A stretch of 35,391 nt of DNA, taken from assembly GCA_029261135.1 (NCBI GenBank), contig JAJDBX010000017.1, positions 1 through 35,391 on the forward strand. Reading direction: 5' to 3'. The notes beneath the pieces were generated by a model that searched no databases, was not told where the DNA came from, and worked only from the letters and a program-made list of their open reading frames with translations. Positions 10,688 to 14,504 of this stretch are shown piece by piece. Source of the DNA: Nitrospirota bacterium (lineage in GTDB: Bacteria; Nitrospirota; Nitrospiria; SBBL01; JAADHI01). The position numbers were made by a program, and so were the translations under genes. How positions within the stretch are numbered: position 1 is the stretch's first letter; each line of letters opens with the position of its first letter.

Positions 10688-10724
10688 AAAAAAAAAGCCG
10701 TAGCTCAATGGAAAGGGCTACAGC
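10688..10724 (-). terminator. Intrinsic terminator inside the cold-shock gene leader
   Basis: On the minus strand GCTGTAGC (10724-10717) pairs with GCTACGGC (10704-10697) and is followed by nine T residues. It lies between the predicted csp promoter and the csp coding region, so transcripts must read through it to express the protein. Confidence 0.75.
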
Positions 10725-10802: not shown

Positions 10803-10840
10803 AAAAAAAAGCCGGACTCCTCAAACCATGAAATCCGGCT
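10803..10840 (-). terminator. Terminator of the candidate ncRNA
   Basis: On the minus strand AGCCGGAT (from 10840) pairs with the GTCCGGC ending at 10811, and eight T residues follow. It is a classic intrinsic terminator. Confidence 0.8.
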
Positions 10841-11145
10841 TGTGCATGGCAGGCGACCGTTCCAAAGACTCTTACTTTTCGCCCGAGGCGTTTGAAATTC
10901 GATCAAACGCTTTACGCACTCACCGTGCGACGGACTGTCGAATGTCGACAGGCTTAGATTGGAACGATCTTCGCTGCAACTCCACGCGATTCACCGACTC
11001 TGAGGCGGTACGACCAAGCGGGATATTCTTTCTCTTCCGGTGTGTCATGCGCACCGACGAGGAAAGCGCTCTTTCTTCTGTCGTTTCGACAGGCCGATCC
11101 ATCGACATCTACATTGCAGTTCCTGTCTGCGTACTCTTTATTTCC
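10803..11145 (-). ncRNA. Candidate structured non-coding RNA (about 340 nt), family not recognised
   Basis: A strong promoter and a strong terminator on the minus strand bound a segment without a convincing protein frame. The segment is rich in perfect stems. An 11-bp helix pairs 10959-10969 with 10855-10865 (two G-U allowed). Inside it lie three hairpins: 10935-10951 (7-bp stem), 10915-10929 (5 bp) and 10888-10910 (8 bp), which together form a multi-branch junction. Another hairpin lies at 11078-11092. It does not match RNase P RNA, tmRNA, 6S or SRP RNA as I remember them. The frame at 10954-11181 would need a TTG that is itself part of the -35 box. Confidence 0.6.
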
Positions 11146-11151
11146 GTCTTC

Positions 11152-11196
11152 ATCATACGCTTTTAACTTAGAAAAAGTCAACGACGAAAATGTCGT
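11152..11196 (-). promoter_or_regulatory. Promoter of the candidate ncRNA with an abutting dyad
   Basis: On the minus strand TTGACT (11181-11176) and TATGAT (11157-11152) have an 18-bp spacer, close to ideal sigma-70. A 5-6-5 dyad (ACGAC...GTCGT, 11181-11196) abuts the -35 box and could be an operator. Confidence 0.65.
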
Positions 11197-13967: not shown

Positions 13968-13975
13968 GTGTTGCA

Positions 13976-13994
13976 ATTGAGAATCGTTCTCAAT
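13976..13994. promoter_or_regulatory. Fur-box-like palindrome
   Basis: ATTGAGAA-TCG-TTCTCAAT is an 8-3-8 palindrome. It contains TGAGAAT-C-GTTCTCA, close to the 7-1-7 Fur-box pattern TGATAAT-N-ATTATCA. It lies 37 bp before a bacterioferritin-like start codon, a sensible place for iron-dependent control. Confidence 0.5.
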
Positions 13995-14030
13995 AAAATG
14001 GGTTCTGTTAAATCAATATGGAGGACAACG

Positions 14031-14504
14031 ATGAACGAACAAGCACTAGACAAAAATGCAGTAACCGAGAAACTAAACCGGATTTTAGAATCCGAACTTG
14101 CAGGGGTGGTGCGTTACACCCACTATGCTCTTATGGTCTACGGTTACAACCGGATTCCTATCATTGCCTGGATGCGGGAACAGGCGACACAATCTCTTGC
14201 TCATGCCGAAGAGGCCGGAGAGCTTATTACGCATTTAGGGGGACATCCCTCTTTGGCAATCGGGCCCTTGTTGGAGACCCAACAACACGATATTGGTGAC
14301 ATCCTACGGGAATCCTTGGACCACGAAGGCGAGGCGCTTCAGACTTATCGTGAGCTATTGGCTTTGGTGGAAGGGCGTTCTGTGCTATTGGAGGACTACG
14401 CACGTCGTATGATTTCCGAAGAAGAAATGCACCAGGGTGAAGTGGACAAGATGCTGCGCAGACCCGGCGACATCGGAGCCTTCTCCGCTTCGCGGGCGAA
14501 GTAG
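14031..14504 (+). CDS. Bacterioferritin / ferritin-like diiron protein
   Basis: This is a 157-residue four-helix protein. Diiron ligand motifs are visible: ESELAGVVRYTHYAL (helix A, E and Y/H), REQATQSLAHAEEAGELIT (helix B, E...H), a second DHEGEALQTYRELL helix, and EEEMHQGEVDKML (helix D, EExxH). It should oxidise and store iron or protect against peroxide. The frame is open further upstream, but I chose the ATG at 14031, where GGAGG precedes it and homology starts. A Fur-like palindrome lies upstream and a hairpin follows. Confidence 0.88.
   Translation: MNEQALDKNAVTEKLNRILESELAGVVRYTHYALMVYGYNRIPIIAWMREQATQSLAHAEEAGELITHLGGHPSLAIGPLLETQQHDIGDILRESLDHEGEALQTYRELLALVEGRSVLLEDYARRMISEEEMHQGEVDKMLRRPGDIGAFSASRAK

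Follow-up and report, generated by a model that had tools for sequence, protein, structure and literature searches.

A putative second 6S RNA with an additional folded 3' domain in Nitrospirota, and its relatives in ribosomal RNA leaders

A locus on the minus strand of a Nitrospirota contig (positions 10803-11181 of the window, the whole 35,391-nucleotide stretch of DNA analysed) probably encodes a divergent second 6S RNA (domain I) with an extra folded domain (domain II) at the 3' end of one shared transcript. 6S RNA, which silences RNA polymerase by posing as a promoter, is described as one rod about 200 nt long. Judged from its sequence, the RNA described here is real and conserved in Nitrospirota, and it would be expected to be transcribed and to bind RNA polymerase.

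Direct reading of the sequence places a promoter, a folded RNA of about 340 nt and an intrinsic terminator on this strand, all where they were first noted (Table 1). The promoter, described in an earlier note on this DNA as near-consensus, matches 10 of 12 consensus positions and is the top site in a scan of a 1.4-kb region. Promoter-like sites in that region are not rarer than chance (4 observed against 3.1 expected), so the promoter gains weight only from its conservation among homologous genes, where similar sites are found. Transcription would start near 11145. The terminator is evident from direct reading and folding and recurs in relatives, although it is missing from the output of a simple scan. 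For the 344-nt RNA the folding energy is -122.5 kcal/mol compared with -107.0 +/- 5.3 for shuffled sequences (z -2.95), about 15 kcal/mol more stable than the shuffle mean, and none of 100 shuffles folded as well. ARAGORN found no tRNA or tmRNA at the locus. The Rfam search that the earlier note had proposed gave no gathering-score match in the window and only chance-level matches at E<=10, which rules out a known Rfam family for the whole RNA. A protein-coding reading was rejected, as the note had anticipated in seeing no plausible protein frame, because the two main frames (75 and 112 amino acids) match no Pfam family and no open frame is maintained across homologues. Its proposal of an independent, non-coding structured RNA gene of about 340 nt, with its own promoter and terminator, is therefore upheld as far as sequence can tell, with predicted homologues in nine other genomes.

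Table 1. Features of the RNA locus in the window, and the sets of related loci and genomes discussed in the text.
Feature	Position	Strand	Description and basis
Promoter	11152..11181	-	TTGACT (11181-11176), 18-nt spacer, TATGAT (11157-11152); position and type kept in nine homologous genes
Domain I, divergent 6S rod (closing stem, central bubble, apical arm)	10973..11123	-	R3 match; relatives match RF00013; covariation
Domain II, multibranched, no known family	10855..10969	-	Covariation; no Rfam match
Domain II closing helix, 5' strand	10959..10969	-	GATCGTTCCAA; 11 bp; covariation
Domain II closing helix, 3' strand	10855..10865	-	TTGGAACGGTC; 11 bp; covariation
Hairpin A	10935..10951	-	CTGTCGA-CAT-TCGACAG; sequence, folding, covariation
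Hairpin C	10915..10929	-	CGCAC...GTGCG; sequence, folding, covariation
Hairpin D	10888..10910	-	GCGTTTGA...TCAAACGC; tip present in relatives, absent from window copy
Intrinsic terminator	10803..10841	-	Hairpin AAGCCGGA...TCCGGCTTTTTTTT and eight T; direct reading and folding; relatives have a terminator at the same place
R2-positive genomes			f1: G000 (window's genome), G007; f10: G022, G027, G034, G036; f12: G024; f7: G019; f5: G015, G016
Leader 6S genes, sister Nitrospirota lineage, several families			L071, L089, L085, L090, L070, L087, L088, L091, L092, L084

A BLAST search with a 401-nt query recovered a second copy in the window's own genome (contig C53, 78-79%), and a copy in another genome of the same family, f1 (G007, 79-80%); three genomes belonging to family f10 matched over short stretches. 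Covariance models of the 3' half (R1) and the 5' half (R2) matched seven and ten, respectively, of the 270 genomes of the class, the R2 matches being spread over five families (Table 1). Weak R2 matches in other class genomes (E 0.004-1) were taken as chance. The distribution is patchy, the RNA being absent from four genomes of the same genus. Each of the genes in the nine other genomes has a promoter-like site ahead of it and a U-run terminator at its end, and every intact copy has a single promoter ahead and a single terminator behind. The two domains always occur together: each strong R2 match has a domain II closing helix downstream, and domain II was never found as a separate RNA, R1 having matched only loci that also carry domain I. 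A mobile or phage RNA was considered and rejected, as one exact pattern tried against viral contigs gave no match and f10 and f12 share a conserved neighbouring gene. In the C53 copy the promoter and the 5' end are missing and the terminator is damaged, giving it a decayed appearance. It belongs to a duplicated block (locus L009, 4500-5521) made up of a ferritin-like fragment, the decayed RNA copy and an intact cold-shock (csp) gene; in the window, a ferritin-like gene (13968-14504) lies about 3 kb from the RNA.

Domain I is a long irregular hairpin of about 150 nt, in which 22 of the 48 pairs vary at both positions while still pairing, whereas sliding the 3' strand gives at most 11; the corresponding covariation cells number 31, against at most 13 in slid controls. 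The Rfam 6S model (RF00013, gathering cut-off 46.4 bits) matches domain I end to end in several relatives, at 44.5 bits in G027, 40.2 in G019, 30.3 in G022, 29.8 in G036 and 28.2 in G034, so that no member bearing domain II reaches the gathering score. These matches take in conserved sequence blocks, namely CUGCGGUGUU, GGGAGC...GCACCC and AACGGCA. Rfam detects no 6S in the window copy itself, even when that copy is searched alone with permissive filters. A further model, R3, was built from eight sequences outside f1 so that the window copy could be tested without circularity. Its best match in the 35-kb window is 10950-11125 on the minus strand (26.2 bits, E 1.6e-5; the next match scores 14.8 bits), and it also matches the C53 copy (29.2 bits), the G007 copy (17.2 bits) and L071, an Rfam-confirmed 6S gene of another lineage (28.9 bits). 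Phylum-wide, R3 finds Rfam-confirmed 6S genes, and homology to 6S is thereby recovered through a non-circular model. The RF00013 matches of the relatives, together with the ability of R3 to find both the window copy and bona fide 6S genes, identify domain I as a divergent 6S RNA, by way of its sequence relatives rather than by direct classification of the window copy. The earlier note called the whole RNA unrecognised; this holds for domain II, which has no Rfam family, but not for the 5' portion of about 150 nt, to which the note assigned no structure and which is the part related to 6S.

Canonical 6S genes, scoring 84-120 bits, are present elsewhere in nine of the ten genomes (G000, at C41:288971-289152, and G007, G015, G016, G019, G022, G027, G034 and G036), which makes the RNA containing domain I a second 6S; none was detected in the tenth, G024, a genome that is 85% complete. 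An additional canonical-type 6S without domain II (L049 2987-3169, minus strand; G006:C56:17486-17668) scores 49 bits with RF00013 in another genome of the window's family.

Run over 396 genomes of the phylum, R3 matched 11 genomes outside the class, and in ten of these the match falls shortly ahead of a 16S rRNA gene in the same orientation, with 14-139 nt between its end and that gene. Eight of the ten are classed as 6S by Rfam, and related rRNA-leader copies reach its 6S cut-off (47-73 bits). All ten genomes also have a separate 6S elsewhere, matched by Rfam but not by R3. A boxA precedes the 16S gene in these ten loci and, in most, the 6S gene as well; the leader 6S genes are positioned between promoter and 16S, beside boxA. 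An independent survey of 16S genes in the sister lineage found more leader 6S genes, by model in L128, L136, L137 and L144 and by eye in L132, as well as many rRNA leaders that lack one, and the arrangement is thus widespread, not universal. The rRNA leaders examined in the window's own class have a boxA-like element and no 6S by R2. Free-standing genes in f10 and f5, and less well those in f12, have a boxA between the promoter and the 6S domain; none was found in the window, G007 or G019. The second 6S thus occurs both in rRNA leaders and as a free-standing gene. On the best reading, the fused free-standing gene is related to the rRNA-leader 6S of the sister lineage; any direction of evolution between them would be conjectural, and selective matches of a model are not a tree. 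A wider scenario is put forward tentatively: Nitrospirota may possess a separate 6S lineage that resides in the rRNA leader and that, in the window's class, stands outside the operon, keeps a promoter-boxA start in most families and has a second domain, making a two-domain polymerase regulator. A separate locus (L064 1501-1640; G023:C1:183480-183619) matches R2 and R3 at 26-31 bits and has no Rfam 6S match, no domain II and no adjoining 16S gene.

The copy in the window departs from this pattern in several respects. The large central bubble of the rod is present in f10, f12, f5 and f7, but is partly paired in the predicted folds of the window copy and of G007; in the window copy 5 bp are predicted across it. 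Together with its lack of boxA, its truncated arm D, the 11 of 48 consensus pairs broken in domain I relative to G007 (2 of 34 in domain II) and the plain damage to the other copy in this genome, this raises the question of whether such an RNA survives in the window's genome only as a decaying relic. This seems somewhat unlikely, as the promoter, the terminator and the helices of domain II are intact and the fold is stronger than those of shuffled sequences. Nevertheless, the pairs across the bubble and the greater number of broken pairs in domain I make 6S function in f1 uncertain: the window copy may be derived or weakening, and its 6S activity may be weaker.

The 11-bp closing helix around three hairpins that the earlier note described is present in the sequence and in the predicted fold of domain II, and in the covariation analysis that it suggested for this helix, the extended helix has 14 pairs, 8 of which vary at both positions in nine distinct sequences, with at most 2 in slid controls. 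When every helix of domain II is counted in the first six sequences, 7 pairs and 13 cells covary, against at most 4 and 7 when slid. The covariation counts for both domains are favoured by structures having come from the same sequences, and they draw on sequences few and related. The closing helix begins only a few nucleotides away from the closing stem of the 6S. At the tip of arm D, other families have a sequence of the type CCC-NNAA-GGG-CCGT-GAG. It could be argued that the mature RNA is an ordinary 6S of about 150-180 nt, and that the 3' part is only an elaborate trailer, trimmed off after transcription; the interior of domain II varies much between families (G015 lacks hairpin A), and in G019 its closing helix continues straight into the terminator U-run. 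However, the closing helix covaries and domain II is conserved over five families, and the one canonical 6S gene examined in these genomes (G000:C41) has no such trailer, so that trimming is an unlikely explanation.

A more radical proposal is that this is a new RNA class unrelated to 6S, with domain II as its functional core and the likeness of domain I due to convergence among long irregular hairpins. The window copy's failure to match Rfam would suit it, as would domain II being the better conserved half between the window and G007. Convergence does not readily account for end-to-end RF00013 matches that include conserved sequence blocks in several genomes, nor for rRNA-linked 6S genes found reciprocally by R2 and R3, and I consider it very unlikely.

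With domain I read as a divergent 6S, the RNA can be set beside known systems. Like 6S/SsrS (RF00013), domain I is one long rod with a closing stem, a central bubble, an apical arm and conserved sequence blocks; unlike it, the RNA falls below the cut-off, spans about 340-400 nt from promoter to terminator where about 200 nt is expected, has a second 3' domain and coexists with a canonical 6S. A second 6S within a genome has parallels in 6S-2 of Bacillus subtilis and the tandem 6S of the Bacillus cereus group (PMC7726162). Those, however, are rods of ordinary length, and the papers searched report neither an extra domain nor an rRNA-leader position for the second 6S. Ms1 of Actinobacteria, which binds the RNA polymerase core (PMC4191392, PMC9130861), is likewise a structured 6S-like RNA, diverged in sequence, and interaction with RNA polymerase is a feature of Ms1; it differs in being a core-enzyme binder of another phylum, and an Rfam-wide search with the whole RNA gave no match tying Ms1 to it. 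The order of promoter, boxA and structured RNA also recalls an rRNA leader, and the boxA resembles that of the class's own rRNA leaders, but here no rRNA follows, a terminator stands after domain II and the window copy has no boxA. In open-access full text, neither a 6S located in an rRNA leader nor a 6S of two domains was found described; most subscription literature lies outside that scope, so this negative is weak evidence of novelty.

The closing stem of 6S corresponds to downstream DNA. If the two-domain 6S functions as proposed, domain I would pass for a melted promoter and, in the manner of 6S, occupy the RNA polymerase holoenzyme, and domain II, directly following the closing stem, would protrude from the downstream side of the enzyme. 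The 6S helix adjoining the bubble on the closing-stem side is termed the downstream helix, and product-RNA synthesis unwinds it (PMC8876501); a folded domain at the end of this helix could hence influence release or attract a partner. Domain II might bind a partner, or alter the unwinding of the closing stem or release of the enzyme during product-RNA synthesis; any function assigned to it is conjectural. In the window's class the gene is free-standing, and domain II and a terminator take the place of the rRNA that would otherwise follow. A conserved two-domain 6S, and a relative built into rRNA leaders, would if true mean that the 6S design tolerates extension and can be tied straight to ribosome production, with a polymerase-silencing RNA produced in step with rRNA. 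Because every transcription of rRNA would also yield a leader 6S, a coupling of polymerase supply to rRNA output would be directly testable.

It is scarcely credible that the RNA is a leader or thermosensor of the downstream csp gene, which is the shared neighbour in the window, C53 and G007 but lies downstream in f1 only, follows a promoter-like site of its own that lies beyond the terminator of the RNA, and is replaced in f10 and f12 by a Lon-like protease gene (Pfam AAA_32, LonB and LonC-type domains); the connection to cold shock drawn in the earlier note is not supported. The sole match to the cspA thermoregulator (RF01766), at 53.8 bits against a cut-off of 78, is in G007 and starts after the terminator of the RNA. 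Between the csp promoter-like site and the csp start codon in the window lies another hairpin with nine T (10688-10724, minus strand; GCTGTAGC...GCTACGGC TTTTTTTTT), which is found again in G007 and C53 and is possibly an attenuator or a short RNA in the csp leader.
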